The position numbers and the translations under genes were made by a program. This document shows, in pieces, positions 18,981-31,612 of a DNA stretch of 33,249 nucleotides. The notes below the pieces were generated by a model. The model saw only the letters and a list, made by a program, of their open reading frames with translations. It was not told where the DNA came from and ran no database searches. Numbering within the stretch: position 1 is the first letter of the stretch; each line of letters starts with the position of its first letter. Origin of the DNA: Candidatus Peregrinibacteria bacterium CG11_big_fil_rev_8_21_14_0_20_46_8 (lineage in GTDB: Bacteria; Patescibacteriota; Gracilibacteria; UBA1369; UM-FILTER-53-11); assembly GCA_002796025.1 (NCBI GenBank), contig PCVQ01000028.1:1-33249 (forward strand). The letters are read 5' to 3'.

Positions 18981-20270
18981 ATGTACACATCGGTTTATTA
19001 CGAAACCTCTGTCTCGGCACAGCAAGTCTTTAAAAAGCTGCGTGATTCAGGCAGAGAGGTAGTCTTGTTGCACGGAAAGCCATGGTCTTTTGTGGGTGTG
19101 GTAAATCCAAAGATTGTAGTACCCAATGGTGAAGCGGGGCTTCGCTTTATCCGTGAGTATGTTGCCCGGTCGCGGAGTAAGCATGAAGGCCGGGTGCGAA
19201 AAGAAGATATGTCGCCGTTTGTGGGAGGATTTGTCGGTTTTGTAAGTTATGATTTAGGACTCGACTGGATGGGCATTGAGCGCGGGCCCGAGTATCCCCA
19301 TATTGTGCCCGATGCGCGCTTTGTTTATGTAGATGAGGTTTACGCTGTGCATGAGAAAAATAACGCCCCGGAGATGGCACCAGCGGCAGCGGAGGCCACC
19401 GCATCAAACACCACCATATCTGACGCCTCCTCCCAAAATTCAGAGCTATTTCGCGAATACTGCGCAAAAATCGATGAGATTAAAGAGCTGCTTTATGCAG
19501 GCGAAACATACCAAGTAAATTTTTCCCGCTTTTTTGAGCGGCCATATAGCGGTGATGCTTTTGAACTCTTTACAAGACTTAACGAACTTAATCCCTCTCC
19601 AATGCAGTTTTTTATGGAGACAAAAGATTGGGCGCTCATTTCGAATTCTCCGGAGCGTCTTTTTTCTGCATCGGCGCGCTCGCATGACAATGTGATTCAT
19701 CTTGAAACGCGTCCAATTAAAGGAACAGTCCCGCGAGGTGCAACCCCCGAAGAAGACCGTAGAAATATTAAGCGACTACTTGAGAGCGAAAAAGAGAGCG
19801 CAGAGCTCTCGATGATTGTCGATCTTTCACGAAACGATCTAGGTAAGGTTGCGAAGCCCGGAACACTCCGTGTGCGTGAGCATCGTGCTATACAGAAACT
19901 TTCGCATGTTATTCATACCTATTCTACAATTGTGGCCGAACTCGCCCCCGGTTTAGACTGGTTTGATTGTTTGCAGGCATTTTTCCCCGGCGGTTCCATT
20001 ACTGGCTGCCCCAAAAAGCGCACCATGGAAATTATTAAAAGGTTAGAAGGGCGTCCACGTGGTGCCTACTGTGGTTCAGCTGGGTACATTGGATTAGATG
20101 GAAGTTGTGATTTTAATATTATGATTCGTACATTGTGGTTGGATAAATTGAAGAAGAGCGTCGTATACAATACAGGCGGTGGCATTGTAATCGATTCTGA
20201 TTCCCACAAGGAATTTCAGGAAACCGAGCACAAAGCCGCTGCCTGCCTAAAGGCCTTGACAGATATATAA
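18981..20270 (+). CDS. pabB: Aminodeoxychorismate synthase component I
   Basis: Chorismate-binding domain; PIKGT (PabB-type), ELSMIVDLSRNDLG, FPGGSITGCPKKRTMEII, FNIMIRTLW. Confidence 0.87.
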   Translation: MYTSVYYETSVSAQQVFKKLRDSGREVVLLHGKPWSFVGVVNPKIVVPNGEAGLRFIREYVARSRSKHEGRVRKEDMSPFVGGFVGFVSYDLGLDWMGIERGPEYPHIVPDARFVYVDEVYAVHEKNNAPEMAPAAAEATASNTTISDASSQNSELFREYCAKIDEIKELLYAGETYQVNFSRFFERPYSGDAFELFTRLNELNPSPMQFFMETKDWALISNSPERLFSASARSHDNVIHLETRPIKGTVPRGATPEEDRRNIKRLLESEKESAELSMIVDLSRNDLGKVAKPGTLRVREHRAIQKLSHVIHTYSTIVAELAPGLDWFDCLQAFFPGGSITGCPKKRTMEIIKRLEGRPRGAYCGSAGYIGLDGSCDFNIMIRTLWLDKLKKSVVYNTGGGIVIDSDSHKEFQETEHKAAACLKALTDI

Positions 20271-20283
20271 TAAATGCTAGTAT
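20256..20283 (+). promoter_or_regulatory. Predicted promoter TTGACA-16-TAGTAT (extended TGC)
   Basis: Overlaps the pabB 3' end, about 30 nt before the small hypothetical gene. Confidence 0.5.
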
Positions 20284-20316
20284 AAGAGTCGTAATTTATT
20301 TACAACTTCAATTTTT

Positions 20317-20577
20317 ATGGAAAGACAACAAATTATAGATTTAGCTCAACAGGTAGCAATGGAGGAAGCAGGTGCTGAAAATGTATGGCAAGCTGTCGAT
20401 GAATTAGGATTTGTCGGCGCATTAGAAGAGCGTCTAAATAGTGGTGGTCCTGATGCTGTACAGGCTTTTTTGGATAACCCTGAAGAAGAAGCGCCCGAAG
20501 GTCTAGGAGATGTGTATCGATCTATTGCCCAGAACTTGAAAGCAAAGATCAAGCGCTTAGAGGAAGAAGGATTATAG
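20317..20577 (+). CDS. Small acidic hypothetical protein
   Basis: 86-aa ORF after a plausible promoter; no family recognised. Confidence 0.6.
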   Translation: MERQQIIDLAQQVAMEEAGAENVWQAVDELGFVGALEERLNSGGPDAVQAFLDNPEEEAPEGLGDVYRSIAQNLKAKIKRLEEEGL

Positions 20578-20586
20578 AATCAATAT

Positions 20587-21006
20587 ATGTATGTAAAAGT
20601 TAAAGATCTTATCGCTTGTGTCGAAGAAATTTTTTCTGATGAAACAGAAGATTTGGGTGCATCAGCCGCTGACGATAATGTCGTTTCCTTAAGCAGGGTA
20701 CAGAAAAGTAAGGAAAAATCGGAAATTCCACCAGATATTCAGGAATTAATCGCAAGCGTACGCGGTGATATTTTTGTGGAAGGCATGCGTCAAGTTTGTA
20801 ATTTGGATAGAGATCCGGACCGTATTAATGGCAGGTTTCTACATGAAGATATGGATTTCATATTCAAAGCATTCGATGACTGTTTACGAGCAATATTGGA
20901 CGAAGTTGAGCCTGAGCAGCGAGCAAGAGAGGCCCAGCGTTTAGGGCCATTAATGTTCTATTTGCGTACGAGAATACACAGACTATTTACAGATGCGCTA
21001 CAATAG
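20587..21006 (+). CDS. Hypothetical acidic helical protein
   Basis: 139-aa ORF 9 nt after the preceding one and 5 nt before pabC. Confidence 0.6.
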   Translation: MYVKVKDLIACVEEIFSDETEDLGASAADDNVVSLSRVQKSKEKSEIPPDIQELIASVRGDIFVEGMRQVCNLDRDPDRINGRFLHEDMDFIFKAFDDCLRAILDEVEPEQRAREAQRLGPLMFYLRTRIHRLFTDALQ

Positions 21007-21011
21007 GCACA

Positions 21012-21809
21012 ATGATCGTCTATTTGAATGGCCGATATCTGGAAGCGGATGAGGCGAAGATCTCAATCTTTGATCCGGGATTTTTATATGGCGATGGAAT
21101 TTTTGAAACCTTGCGTACCTATCGGGGTACGGTGTGGCAGATGGAAAAACATTTGGAGCGCCTGTACGAGTCGGCAAAGATCCGCGGATGGAAGTTGCGT
21201 GTCTCCAAATCGCGCCTGCAAACCGCGATTGAAAATACGGTGAAGCGTAACGGCTTTGAAGAGTCGCGCATTCGCGTAACTATTACAAAGGGTCAAGAGC
21301 CGCAGCCCACACTCTTTATTTGGGTTCAGCCATTGGCAAAGTTGCCGCCGTCACAATATGCCCGCGGAGTATCTGTGGTTACATTTCCATTAGAACGTGC
21401 CTTCCCGCAAATGAAGACCACGAGCATGCAGCCGTTATTGATTGCACGAAGCGAGGCGCAGAAGAGGCGTTGTTTTGAGGCATTGCTCGTTAATCGCCGC
21501 GGCAATGTTACGGAAGGCACATGGGCAAATTTTTTTATTGTAAAAGATAAAGAGCTCATTACGCCCAAGGCCGGTATTCTGCTCGGCACCACCCGCGACC
21601 GAGTTTTAAAAATCGCAAAGCCCCTTTTTAAAATTAAGCAGCAGACCGTCTCCCTAAAAGAGCTGCTTGAAGCAGATGAGTGCTTTATAACGAATGCACC
21701 AAAAGGAATTATTCCTGTAGTAAAAGTGGACGGTCAGCAGATAGGCAAAGGCCGTGTTGGGCCAATTACGAAGCATTTGCGGAAGGAGTTTGAGAAGGTG
21801 GTGGTGTAG
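21012..21809 (+). CDS. pabC: Class IV aminotransferase, probably aminodeoxychorismate lyase
   Basis: FDPGFLYGDGIFETLR, MKTTSM (PLP Lys), GNVTEGTWANFF, TNAPKGIIPV; assignment as PabC rather than BCAT from linkage to pabB/folP. Confidence 0.7.
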   Translation: MIVYLNGRYLEADEAKISIFDPGFLYGDGIFETLRTYRGTVWQMEKHLERLYESAKIRGWKLRVSKSRLQTAIENTVKRNGFEESRIRVTITKGQEPQPTLFIWVQPLAKLPPSQYARGVSVVTFPLERAFPQMKTTSMQPLLIARSEAQKRRCFEALLVNRRGNVTEGTWANFFIVKDKELITPKAGILLGTTRDRVLKIAKPLFKIKQQTVSLKELLEADECFITNAPKGIIPVVKVDGQQIGKGRVGPITKHLRKEFEKVVV

Positions 21810-21817
21810 CCGCGAAA

Positions 21818-22447
21818 TTAACCACAATTTACACAGCCTTCATGTAAGATTTCATGCCAATAATGCTTGAGTGAAAATAATGCATCGGCTTTAACGGTAT
21901 CCGAAAGAATCCACCCCTGACATTCATTAGGGTTATCTCCAAGAAATTCGCATTCGTATCCAATTTTTTGTAATTCACTCATTAACTTTGAACTTGGAAT
22001 ATTTTTAAGTTCGAGACTCGAACCATATATATATTCGCCATCTGCATTGTTTAAAAATTCTTCTAGCCGACCGCAGTCCGATGCAGTAAACATCTGACCG
22101 AGGCCCTGTCCGTCTGATGCATCTTTATATGCCATTGAGACCGGATAGTGCATACTGCCAATATCTGTTTCGTATGGTTGTGCAACACATACTGCCCGTT
22201 TATGTCCCAGTTCCGCCATAGCCTGCGTTAACATAACGCTCATTTCAGAACGCTTTAGATTATTATTCGGACCAAAGGTGCCATCTGCATAGCCATTCAC
22301 GATTCCATACTGTTTTAAAAATTCGGTTGCGTCAGAGTACCACTCTCCTGCTGGAACATCAGAAAAATAGTTGAGATATTGGGCGCTTGTAGTAAGTGCA
22401 AAAGTCAGAAGCGCACCGGCTAGTAATCCAAAAAAGAATTTTTTCAT
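21818..22447 (-). CDS. Secreted protein with a single SLH domain
   Basis: Signal peptide MKKFFFGLLAGALLTFALTTSA; FSDVPAGEWYSDATEFLKQYGIVNGYADGTFGPNNNLKRSEMSVML. Confidence 0.8.
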   Translation of the reverse strand: MKKFFFGLLAGALLTFALTTSAQYLNYFSDVPAGEWYSDATEFLKQYGIVNGYADGTFGPNNNLKRSEMSVMLTQAMAELGHKRAVCVAQPYETDIGSMHYPVSMAYKDASDGQGLGQMFTASDCGRLEEFLNNADGEYIYGSSLELKNIPSSKLMSELQKIGYECEFLGDNPNECQGWILSDTVKADALFSLKHYWHEILHEGCVNCG

Positions 22448-22481
22448 AAAATAAGAGTTAAGATTATTTTGAATATAGCAT

Positions 22482-23285
22482 ATGCTTATTCTGATGCAGA
22501 AAAAAGTAAGACTTATGGGGATTCTCAATGTTACGCCGGACTCGTTTTCCGATGGCGGTCAGTATTTAAATTTGGAGGCCGCGGAAGTGCGCGCTTTGGA
22601 GATGATTAAACAAGGTGCAGAGATTATCGATATTGGCGGGGAGTCGAGCGGGCCGGGAAGTATAGATGTTGATGTTGAAGAAGAGGTGCGTCGCGTGGTT
22701 CCTGTTATTGAGATGTTACGAAAAACAATTCCAAAAACAATTATTATTTCGGTTGATACATATAAGGCGGCGGTGGCGCGGCAAGCAATTGAGTTTGGTG
22801 CAAATATGATAAACGATATAACCGCTTTGCGCGGTGATCCGAAGATGGCAGAGCTTGTTGCACAAACCGGTGTGCCCATTGTGCTCATGTATTCCAAAGA
22901 CCCAACGGCGCGCACTACACGCGAAGAGGTGCACTACGACGACGTTGTCGTAACCATTAAAGATTTTTTGCGCGAGCGTATTGCGTATGCGCAGGCCCAC
23001 GGAATTAAACGTCGGCAGATTATTATCGATCCCGGCATGGGGGCTTTTGTAAGTGCTGTTCCGGAATATAGCTGGGAGATTTTGGAGCGCTTGCATGAAT
23101 TTAAGGAATTCGATTTGCCTATTTTGGTCGGTGCTTCACGCAAATCATTTCTTGGCGGTGCGCTTAATGAACGTCTCGGACCAACGCTGCAAGCGCATAT
23201 GCTTGCAATCAAAAATGGTGCGGATATTATCCGTGTGCACGATGTAAAAGATCATCGTGTGGTTATGGAGCAGCTATCGTATTAA
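22482..23285 (+). CDS. folP: Dihydropteroate synthase
   Basis: MGILNVTPDSFSDGG; GAEIIDIGGESSGPG; IIDPGMG. Confidence 0.92.
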   Translation: MLILMQKKVRLMGILNVTPDSFSDGGQYLNLEAAEVRALEMIKQGAEIIDIGGESSGPGSIDVDVEEEVRRVVPVIEMLRKTIPKTIIISVDTYKAAVARQAIEFGANMINDITALRGDPKMAELVAQTGVPIVLMYSKDPTARTTREEVHYDDVVVTIKDFLRERIAYAQAHGIKRRQIIIDPGMGAFVSAVPEYSWEILERLHEFKEFDLPILVGASRKSFLGGALNERLGPTLQAHMLAIKNGADIIRVHDVKDHRVVMEQLSY

Positions 23286-23296
23286 ATAATTACTTT

Positions 23297-23953
23297 ATGA
23301 AAAGAAACATACTCGTTGGACTTGTAATCTTAGTTGTTGCTCTCGGTGTCGCTGGATGTTTTCTTCGTCCCATTGATCCGGATGATCCTACCGCACCACT
23401 TGAGCTGGAAGAAAAAGCTGCAAAGTTGAAACAAGAACGGAATCAGCTTGCACGCGAATTATCTGCAGCAAAAGAAGAAGAGTTGTCTCTTAAAGTCCAG
23501 CTGGCACTCGCTTCTGATTCTGGCGCGAGCAGTCCAATTCGCGATCCTGAAAACAAGATGCGCTTTTACTATATTTCCCAGGATGGCTCCGGTCAGAATA
23601 TCTGGCTCTATGATGCTGCGAAAGACGAGTCGTACCAAAAGAGCGGTTTTGTAGCAGTTTCTCAATTTCACAAACTTCTTTATAACGAGAAACTCGATGA
23701 GGAGATGGAATTCCGTTTAGTAGGCTTGGATAATGGCAAAATTATATTTTTAGAGACCGGCTTTGAGGATTCACCAGGCCCGTGCTATTCGGCATGGCTC
23801 GAGTGGCGTCCTCTTTATTCCATCGATATTGCCGCTGCAGCACAGAGCGATATTCGTGATGTGAAGCGTAGCGAGTACAAAATCTCTGCGGCGAAAAAAC
23901 TAGAAGCAGAGCAGGATGTCGCTGCCTGCGAATCCGATCTCGGCCCGCAGTAA
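23297..23953 (+). CDS. Lipoprotein of unknown function with N-terminal coiled coil
   Basis: Lipobox VAGC; heptad-like EEKAAKLKQERNQLARELSAAKEEELSL. Confidence 0.6.
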   Translation: MKRNILVGLVILVVALGVAGCFLRPIDPDDPTAPLELEEKAAKLKQERNQLARELSAAKEEELSLKVQLALASDSGASSPIRDPENKMRFYYISQDGSGQNIWLYDAAKDESYQKSGFVAVSQFHKLLYNEKLDEEMEFRLVGLDNGKIIFLETGFEDSPGPCYSAWLEWRPLYSIDIAAAAQSDIRDVKRSEYKISAAKKLEAEQDVAACESDLGPQ

Positions 23954-23959
23954 TACATG

Positions 23960-23968
23960 TGCTATTAT
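23960..23968 (+). promoter_or_regulatory. Extended -10 TGC-TATTAT, 9 nt before queD ATG
   Basis: Direct reading; no convincing -35. Confidence 0.4.
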
Positions 23969-23977
23969 GTCTACCTT

Positions 23978-24358
23978 ATGAGCAAAGCTCACAATCTTCG
24001 GATCAGCCGCGAATTCCACTTTGATGCCGCGCACCATCTTACAAATTACTATGGGAAGTGTGAAAATCCGCATGGTCATACGTATCGTCTAGAGGTGGTG
24101 GTGGAGGGGCCGATTGGTGAAGACGGTCTGGTGATAGATTTTGTGGTTCTCAAAAAAATGACCAAAGAGCGGGTGCTCGAAAAGCTCGATCATAAAGATT
24201 TAAATGAGATTTTTGATAATCCATCTGCGGAAAATATTGCGGTTTGGGTTTGGGAGCAGCTGCACGATATTGGGGCTGCTGCAGAGCGTCCGGTAAAACT
24301 CGTTGAAGTAAAGTTGTGGGAAGGGCAGAATACGGCTGTAATATATGCAGGAAATTGA
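23978..24358 (+). CDS. queD: 6-carboxytetrahydropterin synthase / PTPS-family enzyme
   Basis: FHFDAAHHL, KCENPHGHTYRLEV (CxxxHGH), LDHKDLNEIFDNPSAENIAVWV. Confidence 0.92.
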   Translation: MSKAHNLRISREFHFDAAHHLTNYYGKCENPHGHTYRLEVVVEGPIGEDGLVIDFVVLKKMTKERVLEKLDHKDLNEIFDNPSAENIAVWVWEQLHDIGAAAERPVKLVEVKLWEGQNTAVIYAGN

Positions 24359-24908
24359 ACGAAAAATTTTAGGGATTGATAAAGACGCACTTGTAGCAAA
24401 GCTACTCAAGCTTGGTGCACAAAAGAAATTTAGCGGATTAGTGCGTACAAAGTATTTCGATCATAAAGACGGACGCATAAAGAAGCGCAATGATCTTTTG
24501 CGTGTGCGCGAATTTATTGAGGATGGCAAAGGGGCTTATTCCGAGATTGTCTACAAAACTTTTAAAGGTTTCGAAAAGGGATGCAAAGTAGTGGATGAGA
24601 CAGAATTGAAATTACCGGGCGCCGAAAGTTTTGCAACTATCTGTTTGCTATTAGAAAAACTCGATTTTGAGCAGGTGAAATATTTTGAGAAGAAGCGTGA
24701 AATTTATGTCTATGAAAAGTGGAAATTTGAATTTGATGAGTATCCAAAAATTCCAGAATTTTTAGAGATCGAGGCGCAATCAATAGGTGATATCGATGAG
24801 GCCGTGAAGCTCTTGGGTCTGGAAGAGTACGAGCAGACAGCCGATGCAATCAGCCGTTTACTTAAGAGGAAATATCCAAAAGTAGAATTGGATGGCCTTG
24901 TTTTTTGA
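24345..24908 (+). CDS. CYTH-domain (class IV adenylate cyclase / triphosphate tunnel) protein
   Basis: EIERK (ExExK), LLRVREF, ETELKLP, KKREIYVYEKWKFEFDEYPKIPEFLEIEAQS; overlaps queD by 14 bp. Confidence 0.87.
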   Translation: MQEIERKILGIDKDALVAKLLKLGAQKKFSGLVRTKYFDHKDGRIKKRNDLLRVREFIEDGKGAYSEIVYKTFKGFEKGCKVVDETELKLPGAESFATICLLLEKLDFEQVKYFEKKREIYVYEKWKFEFDEYPKIPEFLEIEAQSIGDIDEAVKLLGLEEYEQTADAISRLLKRKYPKVELDGLVF

Positions 24909-24919
24909 TTTTTCTACAT

Positions 24920-25417
24920 ATGATTATTCTCAGTCTTGGCTCTAATCTGCAGAATACGGAAGAAAATCTTGCGCAAGCTAGAAAATTATTGGCTAAATAT
25001 CTAAGCATAGAGGAAATTTCGCAGCTTTATGAGAGTGAGCCGATCGGTGTCGAAAATCATCCCTGGTACCTGAATCAGGTGGTTTTGGGTAATACCAATT
25101 TGACGGCACAGCAGCTCCTCAAAGTAGCTAAAGAAATTGAACAAAAGATGGGTCGCGATATTCATGCTCCAGATTCCAGCACGCAGATGCGGCCGCTCGA
25201 TATCGATATTCTGTTCTATAATGACGAATGTATTGAAGTTACGGGTTTAATGGTGCCGCACCCGCGTTTGCATCTCCGCCGCTTTGTTCTGGAGCCGCTG
25301 GCCGAGATAGCGCCTAATTTTGTCCATCCTAAACTGCAAAAAACCGTACGGGAATTGTTGAAGGATTGCCCGGATCGCTCTATAGTAAGGCTCCATGGAA
25401 ATTCGCGAACTGCGTAA
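24920..25417 (+). CDS. folK: 2-amino-4-hydroxy-6-hydroxymethyldihydropteridine pyrophosphokinase
   Basis: LSLGSNL, YESEPIG, RPLDIDILFYND, VPHPRLHLRRFVLEPLAEIAP. Confidence 0.93.
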   Translation: MIILSLGSNLQNTEENLAQARKLLAKYLSIEEISQLYESEPIGVENHPWYLNQVVLGNTNLTAQQLLKVAKEIEQKMGRDIHAPDSSTQMRPLDIDILFYNDECIEVTGLMVPHPRLHLRRFVLEPLAEIAPNFVHPKLQKTVRELLKDCPDRSIVRLHGNSRTA

Positions 25418-26303
25418 ACTCGCAACTCAATTTCGTATCGATGTCTTGTATACGACGCATCGCGCGCAGTCCGGTCATGTGACCTCGGCGCTCTCTTGTA
25501 TCGAGCTCCTAACCCTGCTGTATTTCGGCCAGTTAGGCGAAGCTCCGATTATGCGCTTTGACCCGAGCAGAGCTTTGTGGGAGGGCCGCGATCATTTTGT
25601 TTTGAGTAAGTGGCATGGGGTTCCGGCGCTCTATGTTATGTTGGCACATCTCGGATTTTTTCCGCATGACGAGTTGCGCTATTTCCGCCAAGTGAATGCA
25701 ATGTTGCAGGGTCACCCTGTGCGCCGAGTGCCCGGCATAGATGCAACCATCGGTGAATTAGGCCAGGGACTTTCGATTGCAAACGGCATCGCGCTTTCCC
25801 TTAAAATGGATAAAAAACCAAACCGTGTTTATACTCTTCTTGGCGATGGTGAGCTGCAGAGTGGCCAAATTTGGGAGGCAGTTATGACTGCAGCAACGCA
25901 TAAATTGGATAATCTTATAGCTATTGTCGATAACAATAAAATGCAACAAACAAACTTCACGCGTGCGATTAAAGATTTAGATCCGATCGGGCCCCGCTTT
26001 AGTGCCTTTGGCTGGAACGTTGTACCGGTGCGCGACGGGCACTCGTTTGAAGAGCTGCACGATGCGATGTTTCGAGCCTGGAAAGGGCGTCAAAAACCGA
26101 CTGTGATTATTGCAGATACGGTGAAGGGGAAGGGAGTTCCGTTTGCAGAAAATAAAGCTTTTTATCATGGTAAGGCGCTTTCTGATGAAGAGATGCATGA
26201 AGCATTAAAGATTTTGGAGCGCGGATTGTCGGCGCTGGAAACTGAGACATCAGAAGAAATCCAAGCTGTTGCGACAACATACCAAGACAATGCATTGCTG
26301 TAA
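25395..26303 (+). CDS. Transketolase N-terminal subunit (ThDP PP domain)
   Basis: SGHVTSALS, RDHFVLSKWHGVPALY, LQGHP, LGQGLSIANGIAL, GDGELQSGQIWEA … IVDNN (ThDP motif); overlaps folK by 23 bp. Confidence 0.87.
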   Translation: MEIRELRKLATQFRIDVLYTTHRAQSGHVTSALSCIELLTLLYFGQLGEAPIMRFDPSRALWEGRDHFVLSKWHGVPALYVMLAHLGFFPHDELRYFRQVNAMLQGHPVRRVPGIDATIGELGQGLSIANGIALSLKMDKKPNRVYTLLGDGELQSGQIWEAVMTAATHKLDNLIAIVDNNKMQQTNFTRAIKDLDPIGPRFSAFGWNVVPVRDGHSFEELHDAMFRAWKGRQKPTVIIADTVKGKGVPFAENKAFYHGKALSDEEMHEALKILERGLSALETETSEEIQAVATTYQDNALL

Positions 26304-26321: not shown

Positions 26322-26753
26322 ATGGCTACATTCAAACTTTATAAAGAAGGAAAAGATTACCATCAGATTTCAATAAAAAAGATTCGGGACGGTCTAACAA
26401 AAATTGCGCCGCTCGAGTGTTTTGAATTTACTGCACATGCGCCGGGCGAACACTGGGTCAGCATTGCCTCTCCCGAGCTCACTTCAATTTGTCCCTTTTC
26501 CGACTATCCGGATTTTGGCGCGGTAACAATTGAGTATGTTCCGAATAAGCGCTGCTTGGAATTAAAATCGTTTAAGCTCTACATCAACGCATTTCGCGAG
26601 GTTAAAATCTTTCATGAATCTTTGACCGAATTGATTTTTGCCGACTTTTTGGAGGCGGTGAAGCCCCTAAAGGCGCGCATTAGTATCGATATGAATGTGC
26701 GCGGAAATGTAAAAACAGTATGTAAGAAGTACTATAAGTGCAGCCCGCAATGA
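26322..26753 (+). CDS. queF: preQ0 reductase (NADPH-dependent 7-cyano-7-deazaguanine reductase)
   Basis: SICPFSDYPDFGAVTIEYVPNKRCLELKSFKLYINAFREVKIFHE. Confidence 0.9.
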   Translation: MATFKLYKEGKDYHQISIKKIRDGLTKIAPLECFEFTAHAPGEHWVSIASPELTSICPFSDYPDFGAVTIEYVPNKRCLELKSFKLYINAFREVKIFHESLTELIFADFLEAVKPLKARISIDMNVRGNVKTVCKKYYKCSPQ

Positions 26754-27391
26754 TTCTGAACGAAGTATTTTTTTCGGTACAGGGCGAGGGCGTGAATATC
26801 GGTAAGCCCGCAATTTTTGTGCGCTTTGGGAATTGTAATTTGAAGTGCACGTGGTGTGATACGAAGTACACATGGGATCCGGCGGTGGCGGATAATGTGC
26901 GTGTGGATTTGCCGGAACTGTTTGGAAAAATTCGCGCCTATGATTGTAAGCATTTAGTGATTACCGGCGGCGAGCCGATGTTACAGCAAGATGTAATTTG
27001 TGCGATTCGAGAGGAGTTTCTGGACTACTATATTGAGGTCGAGACAAATGGTTCGTTTGCTGCGACAGAGAAGTGCGCCGAGGCCGTGGATTTATTTACC
27101 GTTTCGTATAAGACGAGCAATTCCGGTAATGCACCATACGAGTTGAAGATGTTTGGGTTGGCGTGTGTATATAAATTTGTGGTTGATGCAGTGGGGGACT
27201 TTGAAGAAATTGAAGCTGTGATTGCCAAATATAAGCTGCCGGCTGAGAAAATTTATTTGATGCCGCAGGGCGTAACCCGCGACGAACTGTTAAAAAAACA
27301 CGATATGCTCATTGCACGCTGCAAAGAGAAGGGCTATACATTTACGCCACGATTGCACATTTTAACCTGGGGCGCAGAGCGCCGAAAATAA
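26750..27391 (+). CDS. queE: 7-carboxy-7-deazaguanine synthase (radical SAM)
   Basis: SVQGEGVNIGKPAIFVRFGNCNLKCTWCDTKYTWD; VITGGEPMLQ; ATGA overlap with queF. Confidence 0.92.
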   Translation: MILNEVFFSVQGEGVNIGKPAIFVRFGNCNLKCTWCDTKYTWDPAVADNVRVDLPELFGKIRAYDCKHLVITGGEPMLQQDVICAIREEFLDYYIEVETNGSFAATEKCAEAVDLFTVSYKTSNSGNAPYELKMFGLACVYKFVVDAVGDFEEIEAVIAKYKLPAEKIYLMPQGVTRDELLKKHDMLIARCKEKGYTFTPRLHILTWGAERRK

Positions 27392-27393
27392 TA

Positions 27394-28011
27394 ATGAAAA
27401 CAATTCTCATCTACTCCGGCGGCATGGACTCGACCACGCTTTTGTATAAGTTACTTGCCGATGGTGATGAGGTTCGTGCGATCTCTTTTGATTACGGCCA
27501 GCGGCACAAAAAGGAATTGGACTGCGCTGCGCAAATTTGCAAAAAGCTTAATGTGCCGCACGAGAGTATCGATGTGACAAATTTAAAGAGCTTGATGCGC
27601 GGTTCGGCTTTGACTGATCGTATCGAAGTGCCCGAGGGTCACTACGAAGATGAAAGCATGAAGCAGACCGTGGTCCCGAATCGCAATATGATTTTTATCT
27701 CACTCGCGATTGCAGCGGCGGTTAGTGCAAAGTTTGGCCGCGTTGCCATTGCGGTGCACGCCGGCGATCATGCCATTTATCCCGACTGCCGCCCGGAATT
27801 TATCGAAAAAATAGATGCCACAGCGCGCATTGCCAATTACGAAGCAATCGAAGTCCATGCGCCTTTCTTGCACATTTCAAAAGGAGAAATCGCAAAAATC
27901 GGCCGCACCCTAAGCGTGCCCTACGAATTAACGTGGACCTGCTATAAAGGATTAGATGAGCCGTGCAGCAAGTGCGGAGCCTGTGTGGAGCGGGCGGAGG
28001 CGCTGGGGTGA
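27394..28011 (+). CDS. queC: 7-cyano-7-deazaguanine synthase
   Basis: IYSGGMDSTTLLY, YGQRHKKEL, VPNRNMIFISLA, WTCYKGLDEPCSKCGACVERAEA. Confidence 0.94.
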   Translation: MKTILIYSGGMDSTTLLYKLLADGDEVRAISFDYGQRHKKELDCAAQICKKLNVPHESIDVTNLKSLMRGSALTDRIEVPEGHYEDESMKQTVVPNRNMIFISLAIAAAVSAKFGRVAIAVHAGDHAIYPDCRPEFIEKIDATARIANYEAIEVHAPFLHISKGEIAKIGRTLSVPYELTWTCYKGLDEPCSKCGACVERAEALG

Positions 28012-28073
28012 TAGAGGCCTCTTGCTAAGTGTGTCTACCGCGGCTCGTCTATGTACAATAGACCATTTTCCCC

Positions 28074-28101
28074 TTGTCCCCTCAACAAAAAGCGCTATCA
28101 T
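28074..28101 (+). promoter_or_regulatory. Predicted promoter TTGTCC-16-TATCAT, 6 nt before the DUF192 ATG
   Basis: -35-like 28074-28079, -10-like 28096-28101. Confidence 0.45.
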
Positions 28102-28107
28102 AAGCCC

Positions 28108-28599
28108 ATGAAAAAGATTTCCCTTATCGCTCTGCTTGCAGGTGTAACCCTTACGCTTTCTGCTTGTTCGGTCAGTAATTTAGTTCCTGATTTTTTAAAG
28201 GGCGGTCTGCCCAAAGAAGAACTCACAATCAAGACGCAATCCGGCTCGGTTGTGGTAAAGGCCGAGGTTGCCGATGACGACGAAGAGCGTTCACAAGGTT
28301 TGATGAATCGTGAAAAGCTCGAGAGCGGCAACGGCATGCTCTTTGTTTTTGAAGATGAGGCGCCGCGGGCATTTTGGATGAAAAACACTCTTATTCCGCT
28401 CGATATTTTATACATAAGCAGCAAGAATGAGGTCGTCTCGATTGTTGAGAATATGGAACCATGCACTGTGCCGCAGTGCCCATCATACTTGTCGGGGCGT
28501 CCTGCAATGTTTGCACTGGAATTGCCAGCCGGCTTTGTACAGCAGTATGGCATCGAAGTTGGTGACACGATTCAGCGTGGCGGAAATGACGACGCCTAA
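28108..28599 (+). CDS. DUF192-family lipoprotein
   Basis: Lipobox LSAC; RSQGLMNREKLESGNGMLFVFEDEAPRAFWMKNTLIPLDILYIS. Confidence 0.88.
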   Translation: MKKISLIALLAGVTLTLSACSVSNLVPDFLKGGLPKEELTIKTQSGSVVVKAEVADDDEERSQGLMNREKLESGNGMLFVFEDEAPRAFWMKNTLIPLDILYISSKNEVVSIVENMEPCTVPQCPSYLSGRPAMFALELPAGFVQQYGIEVGDTIQRGGNDDA

Positions 28600-28614: not shown

Positions 28615-29520
28615 ATGGAAACCATTGCAACAAAATCATTTGGAGAAGTTCTTGGCGTGCTTGCAGATCGCTATCGTAATCTTGTTGTCTTAACCGGGGA
28701 TATTGTAATTTCTGGCATTGGCAGTTCTGATCGTGTTATTAATTTAGGTTTTGGTCACGCCGATATGATCGGTTGTGCTGCAGGCCTTGCGATTGCCGGT
28801 AAAATTCCCGTGGTCTGTGCACCTGCAAGTGCGATTGCCGGTCAGGATTGGGAGCAAATACGGAATTCGATTGCGCTTCCGAATTTAAATGTAAAGCTTA
28901 TTGGAGTATCCGGCGGATTGGAGGCTGCACAGGATGGTCCCGCACGGCAGGCTCTTGAAGATTTTGCTTTGATGCGTGCAATGCCCAATATGAAAGTTTT
29001 TTGTCCGGCGAGCAGAGAGGAATTGCGTGCGATGCTGCCACAAATCTTTGAAGATTTTGGTCCTTCATATTTGCGTTTAGGTGCGCTTGGCGTAGATCTT
29101 GAACAAGAGCATGTGCGTTTTGAACTTGGTAAAGGCAGTTTGTTGCGCGGAGGTAATGATGTTGCGGTTTTTGCAACCGGCGCATTGGTGGGTAGCGCAG
29201 TACATGCTTCTGACCGTCTTGCCGAAGAGGGGATTAACGTTCGTGTTATTAATCTTTCAACAATCCAGCCGATAGACCAAGAGTTAATTTTAGATACCGC
29301 TGAGCAAGTGAAAATTGTAGTGACTGCCGAAGAGCATCAAATTCAAGGAGGATTGGGAAGTGCCGTAGCCGAGGTGCTGGTTGGCGCCAAGCCGAAGGTG
29401 CTGCATCACATTGGTATGCGGCAAACCTTTGGAGACTCGGGCCGTATCGGAGCTCTTTTTCGTAAATATCGCTTTGATGCCGAGGGCGTATACCAACAAA
29501 TACGGGCGTTGGTGATATAG
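28615..29520 (+). CDS. Transketolase C-terminal subunit-like protein with atypical active site
   Basis: METIATKSFGEVLGVL, WEQIRNSIALPNLNVK, DGPARQALEDFALMRAMPNM, VVTAEEHQIQGGLGSAVAEVL; PYR plus C-terminal domains. Confidence 0.85.
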   Translation: METIATKSFGEVLGVLADRYRNLVVLTGDIVISGIGSSDRVINLGFGHADMIGCAAGLAIAGKIPVVCAPASAIAGQDWEQIRNSIALPNLNVKLIGVSGGLEAAQDGPARQALEDFALMRAMPNMKVFCPASREELRAMLPQIFEDFGPSYLRLGALGVDLEQEHVRFELGKGSLLRGGNDVAVFATGALVGSAVHASDRLAEEGINVRVINLSTIQPIDQELILDTAEQVKIVVTAEEHQIQGGLGSAVAEVLVGAKPKVLHHIGMRQTFGDSGRIGALFRKYRFDAEGVYQQIRALVI

Positions 29521-29555: not shown

Positions 29556-30503
29556 ATGGCAAAGCCTAAAATAAAGCTTTTTGCAGGGACATCGCATCCC
29601 GCGCTTGCAAAACAAATATCGAAATTACTCAAAATTCCACTTTCTCCAATGCACATTCAACGCTTTGCGTGTAACGAGATTTATACGAAGCCGAGCGAGA
29701 GTGTTCGCGATGCCGATGTCTTTATTATTCAAACCGGCACGCAAAATGTAAACGAAGATTTAATGGAGCTCTTTATTATGCTCGATAGCTTTAAGCGCTC
29801 GTTTGCTTCAACTGTTCATGTGGTTATGCCGCATTTTCCATACGCCCGGCAAGATCGTGTTGCGAGTCCGCGTGAGCCGATTACCGCAAAGTTGATTGCC
29901 GATCTTTTGTCGAAAGCAGGTGCCGATCATCTTATTACATTTACACTGCACAGTGATCAAGAGCAGGGATTCTTTGATTTTCCTGTCGATAATTTGACGG
30001 CGCGCAAGCTCTTTGCAGAATATTTTAATAAGAAAAAATTTAAAAAAGCACCGGTCATTGTTGCGCCGGATGTGGGCAGTGCTAAAGAGGCCGACCGCCT
30101 TGCCAAGATGCTTGGAGCGGATTTGGCAATTTTGAATAAAATTCGTCCTAAGCATAATGTTGCCGAAGTTACGCATGTCGTTGGTGATGTAAAAGGCCGC
30201 GACTGTATTCTCTACGACGACATGGTCGATACCGGTGGTTCAGTTGTAGGTGGTGCAAATGTATTGAGAAAGTCCGGAGCAAATAGCGATATTTATCTTG
30301 CGGCTACGCATGCCGTGCTTTCGCGTGATGCTGCCGAAAAATTAAAGAGCGCAGATTTTAAGGAGATTGTCTTTACCGATACGATTCCGATTCCAAAGGA
30401 AAAGCAGTTAAAAAATATGAAGATTATTTCTGTGGCGCCCCTGCTTTCGCGCGTTGTCGATCACGTACATACTGGCAAAGCCCTTAGCCATTTACACGCA
30501 TAA
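29556..30503 (+). CDS. prs: Ribose-phosphate pyrophosphokinase
   Basis: PHFPYARQDR, FDFPVDNL, CILYDDMVDTGGS (PRPP loop). Confidence 0.92.
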   Translation: MAKPKIKLFAGTSHPALAKQISKLLKIPLSPMHIQRFACNEIYTKPSESVRDADVFIIQTGTQNVNEDLMELFIMLDSFKRSFASTVHVVMPHFPYARQDRVASPREPITAKLIADLLSKAGADHLITFTLHSDQEQGFFDFPVDNLTARKLFAEYFNKKKFKKAPVIVAPDVGSAKEADRLAKMLGADLAILNKIRPKHNVAEVTHVVGDVKGRDCILYDDMVDTGGSVVGGANVLRKSGANSDIYLAATHAVLSRDAAEKLKSADFKEIVFTDTIPIPKEKQLKNMKIISVAPLLSRVVDHVHTGKALSHLHA

Positions 30504-30513
30504 CTTTATTCTT

Positions 30514-30966
30514 ATGATTTATATCGGATCAGATCATGCAGGTTACGAGCGTAAGCAAGAAATCGAAGCCTATTTAAAAGGAAAGGGAGAAGATGTTGTT
30601 GATCTCGGTGTTTTTGCGGCAGAACCGCCTATGGATTATCCCGATATTGCGCACGAAGTGGCAGAGAAGGTGCGGCAAACTCACGGCGCCCGCGGAATTT
30701 TGGTATGCGGTTCTGGAGTTGGCATGTGTATGACTGCAAATAAGAAGCACGGAATTCGTGCAGTACATGGTGAGCGTAATGACAGTGTCGAAATGTCGCG
30801 CAAACACAACGATGCAAATATTCTCTGTTTGGGCGCACGTATGTTGAGCAAGGAAGAGTCATTCCAATTTATCGATACATTTTTATCAACTGAATTTGAA
30901 GCCGGAGAAGAGCGTCATGTTCGACGCGTAGATAAGATTGAGCCGGCAGCACAGCCCCATGCCTAA
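30514..30966 (+). CDS. rpiB: Ribose-5-phosphate isomerase B
   Basis: IGSDHAGYERKQEI, VDLGVF, ILVCGSGVGMCMTANK, AVHGERNDSVEMSRKHNDANILCLG. Confidence 0.93.
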   Translation: MIYIGSDHAGYERKQEIEAYLKGKGEDVVDLGVFAAEPPMDYPDIAHEVAEKVRQTHGARGILVCGSGVGMCMTANKKHGIRAVHGERNDSVEMSRKHNDANILCLGARMLSKEESFQFIDTFLSTEFEAGEERHVRRVDKIEPAAQPHA

Positions 30967-31612
30967 ACTACTTATTGCCCCATCGATTCTCTCGGCTGAC
31001 TTTGGCAAGATCAATGAAGAGATTGCCAGCATCTCTTCGCATGCCGATATGATTCATGTCGACGTGATGGATGGGCACTTTGTGCCGAATATCACCTTTG
31101 GGCCGGATCAAATTGCAAAGATGCGCAGCACATTGCCCATGGACGTGCATTTGATGATTGAGCAGCCGGAGAAGTATTTGGAAGAATTTGCAAAGGCAGT
31201 AGAAAAGGCGCACGGGCGCCGCGATGATTCGTATTTAACTGTGCATCAGGAATCCAGCGTCCATCTTGAGCGCTTGGTTCAGCAGATAAAAGGATTGGGG
31301 ATGAAGGCTGCAGTTGCATTGAATCCGGCAACGCCATTGGTGAGTATCGAATCGTTGCTCGGCGATATAGATATGGTCTTACTCATGACCGTTAATCCCG
31401 GTTTTGGCGGGCAGAGTTTTATTGCATCTGTTGTGCCGAAGATTAAGGAATTGCGTGCAAAGGCACCGGATTTGAATATTCAAGTTGATGGGGGGATTAA
31501 CGAAAAAACGTATCGGCAGGCAGTTGAGGCCGGTGCAGATATCTTGGTTGCGGGCTCATATGTGTTTGGTGCAAAAGATCGTGCAGCCGCAATTGCGGCG
31601 CTGAGAAAATAG
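30959..31612 (+). CDS. rpe: Ribulose-phosphate 3-epimerase
   Basis: IAPSILSADF, HVDVMDGHFVPNITFG, DVHLMIEQPE, VNPGFGGQSFI, QVDGGINEKT; 8-bp overlap with rpiB. Confidence 0.95.
   Translation: MPKLLIAPSILSADFGKINEEIASISSHADMIHVDVMDGHFVPNITFGPDQIAKMRSTLPMDVHLMIEQPEKYLEEFAKAVEKAHGRRDDSYLTVHQESSVHLERLVQQIKGLGMKAAVALNPATPLVSIESLLGDIDMVLLMTVNPGFGGQSFIASVVPKIKELRAKAPDLNIQVDGGINEKTYRQAVEAGADILVAGSYVFGAKDRAAAIAALRK

Follow-up and report, generated by a model that had tools for sequence, protein, structure and literature searches.

Textbook knowledge of yeast transketolase assigns the activation of N1' of thiamine diphosphate (ThDP) to E418, with which E162 is coupled, an aromatic clamp to F442 and F445, sugar-phosphate binding to R359, H469 and R528 alongside H481, active-site roles to the histidines H30, H69, H103 and H263, and Mg binding to D157 and N187. 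In Carboxydothermus hydrogenoformans the enzyme is an active alpha2beta2 complex of two separately encoded subunits (6yaj/6yak). Departures from this scheme include glyoxylate carboligase, a ThDP enzyme in which Val replaces the Glu (PMC3534367), and the steroid-17,20-desmolase DesAB, proposed to be a homologue of split transketolase that has left the pentose-phosphate pathway for another task (PMC3735941). Metabolic pseudoenzymes, in turn, keep a fold and a sequence under selection after the loss of catalytic residues.

The window analysed here, a stretch of 33,249 nucleotides, is one contig (C53) of a 1.32-Mb Candidatus Peregrinibacteria genome that is 91% complete and in draft in 70 contigs. 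It carries a split transketolase pair, tktN and tktC, in the order folK-tktN-tktC-prs-rpiB-rpe (Table 1). The gene order of the window is that of a genome of the same family (G003), indicating that the contig is native, and the synteny of the locus persists across families, even where tktC is reduced to a stub. The queF-queE-queC genes between tktN and tktC are found in the window and in G003 and are absent from that position in the other families read. The lipoprotein-like reading frame that follows them may encode a DUF192 protein. Described Peribacteria genomes lack folate synthesis genes, whereas the window has folK; 6-phosphofructokinase is missing from them as well, its place reportedly being taken by enzymes of the pentose-phosphate pathway (PMC4736985). 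Folate genes occupy window positions 18981-25417, folK being assigned by NCBIfam and pabB, pabC and folP from the sequence by eye. S-layer-homology-like repeats (FPDVP..HPF / FSDVP..EWY) occur in the proteins encoded at 65-2728, where they are fused to a long propeller-like region, and at 21818-22528.

Table 1. Features of the split transketolase locus in the window
Feature	Coordinates	Strand	Basis
folK, conserved neighbour upstream of tktN	24905..25417	+	NCBIfam TIGR01498 above cut-off; synteny
tktN, partner N subunit (PP domain)	25395..26303	+	Sequence comparison; model against 6yak
queF, queE, queC (7-deazaguanine pathway)	26322..28011	+	Profile matches; same three in G003
Small lipoprotein-like ORF; commonly separates tktN from tktC in the order	28051..28599	+	Synteny; sub-threshold NF002996 match only
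tktC, split-transketolase C subunit (Pyr and C-terminal domains), eroded active site	28615..29520	+	Pfam; 6yaj alignment; AlphaFold model
prs, PRPP synthetase; throughout the order the next gene after tktC or what is left of it	29556..30503	+	NCBIfam NF002320 and TIGR01251 above cut-off; synteny
rpiB, ribose-5-phosphate isomerase B	30454..30966	+	Profile match; synteny
rpe, ribulose-phosphate 3-epimerase	30938..31612	+	Profile match; synteny

Fold and active site of the window pair

The tktC frame is open throughout and encodes 301 aa, in which the Pfam domains Transket_pyr and Transketolase_C were both found well above cut-off. Among solved proteins, the C chain of 6yaj comes closest (E=4e-62) and is also the best PDB match of the AlphaFold model (pLDDT 90, TM 0.89), while the TktN model (pLDDT 91) best matches the N chain of 6yak (TM 0.87/0.93). 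Domains and folds therefore follow the split-gene layout, with the Pyr and C-terminal domains in the C subunit and the PP domain in the N subunit, and the preliminary description of this DNA was right that the fold is retained.

Aligned with 6yaj, TktC reads NLGFGHAD for NMGIAEQN, VSGG for THAG, QDGPARQ for EDGASHQ, CAPASA for STFAVF and RLGA for RLGR, so that His48 occupies the column of the N1'-activating Glu. In yeast numbering the changes amount to E418H, F442P, F445A, H469S, H481R and R528A (H48, P70, A73, S99, R111 and A157 of TktC) and to the deletion of R359, along with ~6 residues between positions 33 and 40; the Glu and the ligands expected of a transketolase are thus absent, with His48 in place of the former and a gap, S99, A157 and R111 in place of R359, H469, R528 and H481. 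The replaced motifs had been noticed in the preliminary description, and the codons given there for His48 (CAC, 28756-28758) and Arg111 (CGG, 28945-28947) are confirmed in the window; that account understated the loss, having missed the R359 equivalent, the ~6 residues and E162 of the partner. Among positions invariant across the order, TktC has lost 7 of 8 in the active site and 12 of 69 elsewhere (Fisher p=1.4e-4), and the model and the residue counts together show the combination expected of a pseudoenzyme, with catalytic residues gone and the fold retained.

TktN retains 9 of 10 active-site residues, among them the two Mg ligands and the full set of four histidines. The diphosphate motif for ThDP is present (G150-D151-G152 ... 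N181), as are the donor-site histidines H28, H74, H107 and H258; GPLGQG reads GELGQG, and the position of yeast E162 is Ser156 (QEG to QSG). The earlier statement that the N partner keeps GDG...NN is accurate, and the histidines stay as well, but the subunit is not intact, having lost the coupled Glu. This degree of retention is compatible with either residual chemistry or recent loss.

A second, canonical transketolase, proposed earlier as something to look for, is encoded on contig C5. This complete 702-aa enzyme (PF00456, 482 bits) retains HYGVREHAM, THDS, GEDGPTHQ and the N-side motifs, and the eroded split pair is thus dispensable as the transketolase of the cell.

The locus across the order

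The order was searched in 89 genomes and the locus was read in 72, of which 19 have an intact TktC catalytic set (counting G026, with Lys for the last Arg, and G001, read in part), 52 are eroded and one (G185) has tktC off the piece fetched. The E418 column holds Glu in 44 of 66 aligned TktC and another residue in 22 (Leu in four, Ser in three, Asp, Tyr and Ile in two each, and His, Met, Gly, Gln, Lys, Phe, Ala, Trp and Val once each), the single His being that of the window. With four stubs from family f4, seen by tblastn only, the Glu is missing from 26 of the 72 loci, and at least nine changes at this position are required by parsimony when a TktN tree built from the first 46 loci is used. 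All of the TktC read at the Glu motif from outside the order (the class and four unrelated genomes) keep the Glu, from which it follows that the erosion is derived; the pair ancestral to the order is shown to have been canonical as a split transketolase and to have lain in a pentose-phosphate/PRPP gene cluster.

Eroded TktC occur in most families of the order and take several forms. Full-length proteins with active-site loss are present in the window and in G006, G014, G016, G038, G056, G209 and G211, proteins cut to the Pyr domain alone (~130-175 aa) in G019, G030, G058 and a dozen more, and a stub of 112-119 aa in each of the six f4 genomes, where it separates tktN from prs. No tktC was found in G028. 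The orthologous pair in five genomes from the family of the window has canonical motifs (GISEQD or GIAEQD, SHGG, GEDGATHQ and RLGR), though in G001 it is split over two contigs and was read only in part. Set against four sisters, window tktC has a branch of 1.14 changes per site where theirs are 0.15-0.21; for tktN the branch is 0.50 against 0.10-0.21. Identity to G003 is 48% for TktC and 64% for TktN. It reaches 66-78% in prs, rpiB, rpe, queC and ndk, but is also low in folK, pabB and the lipoprotein (44-54%). In the preliminary description canonical relatives were to mark the window copy as one divergent or mis-sequenced gene. Relatives in the same family are indeed canonical, but other families lost the motifs independently, and window tktC is therefore not a lone mis-sequenced copy; a single odd gene is ruled out by the synteny and the many independently eroded relatives.

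Most of the eroded genomes read possess another transketolase, which in many lineages is a complete enzyme, a fused enzyme or a second split pair. For G045 (98% complete), G206 (99%), G209 and G010, an eroded pair was found and no other TktN-like match, and transketolase may be absent from them altogether. Redundancy alone is thus insufficient to account for the erosion, unless these genomes are incomplete or the cells do without the enzyme. The second split pairs of relatives L041, L038, L032, L035, L036, L037, L039, L040, L043, L115 and L116 are otherwise canonical and have SEG for GDG in TktN, with Glu in place of the Mg-ligand Asp. In the same class, the split TktC of G174 (L172, G174:C66:31302-32222) contains 19 in-frame TGA codons, which fits TGA as a sense codon and the recoding of Absconditabacteria/Gracilibacteria, and makes a Gracilibacteria- or Peregrinibacteria-like lineage within the candidate phyla radiation likely.

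The losses are concentrated in the active site across nine lineages (common odds ratio 18, active-site against other invariants), with a p of 5e-27 that assumes independent sites and is indicative only. The least-kept TktN positions among 53 eroded loci are H103 (2/53), Leu122, Gly106, Thr119, Arg98 and E162 (12/53), and those of TktC are F442 (3/45), R528 (3/36), H481 (5/31), H469 (5/30) and D477 (8/33). Structural positions are kept in 50-53 of the 53 loci, E167 in 51, the Mg ligand D157 in 50 and N187 in 43. The sugar, thiazole and pyrimidine pockets are lost, while the metal-diphosphate end is largely retained along with the fold; as D157 may persist for structural reasons, this retention only suggests ligand binding. 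A strict rule, by which every pair without E418 would also be without E162, applied to 17 of 17 cases in the first set and was abandoned after exceptions in three of nine held-out genomes, leaving an association (23 loci with both lost, three with E418 only, 17 with E162 only and 27 with neither; p=5e-5, kinship ignored).

Selection and alternative readings

Close pairs of eroded copies gave pN/pS values of 0.007-0.47, compared with 0.077-0.086 for canonical controls. The E418L TktC shared by G006 and G050 has a value of 0.045 and its TktN 0.007, Pyr-only TktC have 0.07 and 0.15, and in f4 the values are 0.17-0.20 for TktN and 0.42-0.47 for the ~115-aa stub, whose synonymous sites are near saturation (all p<2e-7); the TktC of G037/G049 has 0.125. 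Eroded copies with close pairs evolve like working proteins, under purifying selection. These measurements come from relatives; for window tktC itself the evidence is indirect, from a simulation of neutral change in 30% of its residues, in which ~4.5 stops are expected.

The reading that we consider probable is that TktN and TktC form a pseudo-transketolase pair, probably unable to activate ThDP or to hold sugar phosphates, and kept for a non-catalytic role. The faster evolution of both window genes, the synteny maintained across families and the Glu of TktC outside the order also speak for it. The order would have inherited its split transketolase within a folate/queuosine/pentose-phosphate gene neighbourhood; the arrival of a second transketolase may then have freed the native pair, which would have lost catalysis and been retained. 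The two subunits may still assemble in alpha2beta2 fashion and, as a complex, bind either a partner or, at D151/N181, a Mg-diphosphate ligand. The lasting position of the pair beside prs, rpiB and rpe, along with the retention of the fold, suggests a putative scaffold or regulator for ribose-5-phosphate/PRPP metabolism. More tentative, and somewhat short of an even chance, is the extension of this account to the whole order, in which the native split transketolase would repeatedly have turned into a non-catalytic complex whose gene position stayed fixed. It would have kept the Mg-diphosphate pocket and the fold, shed catalytic residues first and whole domains later, and served ribose-5-phosphate/PRPP metabolism as a regulator or scaffold.

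It is less likely, at something like one chance in five, that the native pair of the window is degenerating without function after the gain of the complete transketolase, whether or not the copies of relatives are functional. Such decay would fit the long tktC branch and the same-family genomes that have no second transketolase and keep all motifs: the split pair is the sole TktN-like locus in G001, G003 and G004, while G002 and G005 have an extra fused ~685-aa enzyme besides a canonical pair. The genus is, moreover, known from one genome, no same-genus relative having been found. Against decay, the open tktC frame has a normal codon-position composition and a stop-free outcome occurred in only 1.1% of neutral runs (P=0.011), which disfavours recent decay; further, the lesion is centred on the active site and parallel lineages are under strong purifying selection.

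A ThDP enzyme of changed chemistry, in which the N subunit binds ThDP and the ketose head group and a new C subunit (His48, Arg111) takes another substrate or mechanism, is improbable. The retained TktN residues H28, H74, H107, D151, N181 and H258 would suit such an enzyme, glyoxylate carboligase shows the Glu to be dispensable in one family (PMC3534367) and, according to a published proposal, DesAB is a split transketolase that acts on a different substrate (PMC3735941). However, the Glu column takes ~14 residues, neither His48 nor Arg111, whose conservation had been raised as a question, occurs in any relative read, the aromatic clamp F442/F445, the coupled E162 and the phosphate ligands are all lost, and relatives have dropped whole domains at the same locus. 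Since His is found at the Glu position in window TktC alone, His48-based ThDP chemistry is unlikely. The preliminary description had offered a changed mechanism or a pseudoenzyme subunit as its two possibilities; the first finds no support in the varied Glu column or in the loss of the clamp and the sugar-phosphate ligands, and the second is supported by an erosion centred on the active site, the retained fold, the intact transketolase elsewhere in the genome and purifying selection on the eroded copies of relatives. An artefact of a chimeric contig, sequencing error or mis-alignment, which the fragmented draft assembly might invite, is extremely improbable and already contradicted by the gene order identical to G003, the gap-free alignment of the motifs to 6yaj (E=4e-62) and the same kind of erosion in many independent genomes.

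Comparison with known systems

If the pseudo-transketolase reading is correct, the locus is a natural replay of enzyme-to-pseudoenzyme evolution at one operon position in dozens of genomes, with all stages seen, from intact enzyme through active-site-null heteromer to a 115-residue stub, and with selection still measurable. A possible second, non-catalytic role of transketolase would become testable. Annotations of TktN and TktC in these small-genome bacteria can mislead, and as several genomes have only the eroded pair, pentose-phosphate reconstructions that rely on it need rechecking. No such case was found in open-licence papers, whether on split transketolase, on pseudoenzymes derived from transketolase or on the enzyme in Peregrinibacteria.

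The window pair shares its two-subunit layout and fold with the C. hydrogenoformans enzyme, from which it differs in a C subunit without equivalents of E418, F442, F445, H469, H481, R528 and R359 and an N subunit without that of E162. Like glyoxylate carboligase, TktC has no Glu at the N1' position, but that enzyme belongs to another branch of the ThDP superfamily and its Val is fixed family-wide, whereas in this order the position is random, with no defined replacement conserved among relatives, and the remaining active site is lost too. DesAB differs as a proposed active ThDP enzyme in its own operon, its likeness to the window pair lying in the split layout and the diverted role. A further parallel is with metabolic pseudoenzymes, from which this case differs in its recurrence across an order and in stepwise domain loss at a fixed locus. 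A pseudoenzyme derived from a metabolic enzyme is of a known kind; what is new to us is this particular case, the fact that it recurs, and the way domains are shed step by step at a single locus.
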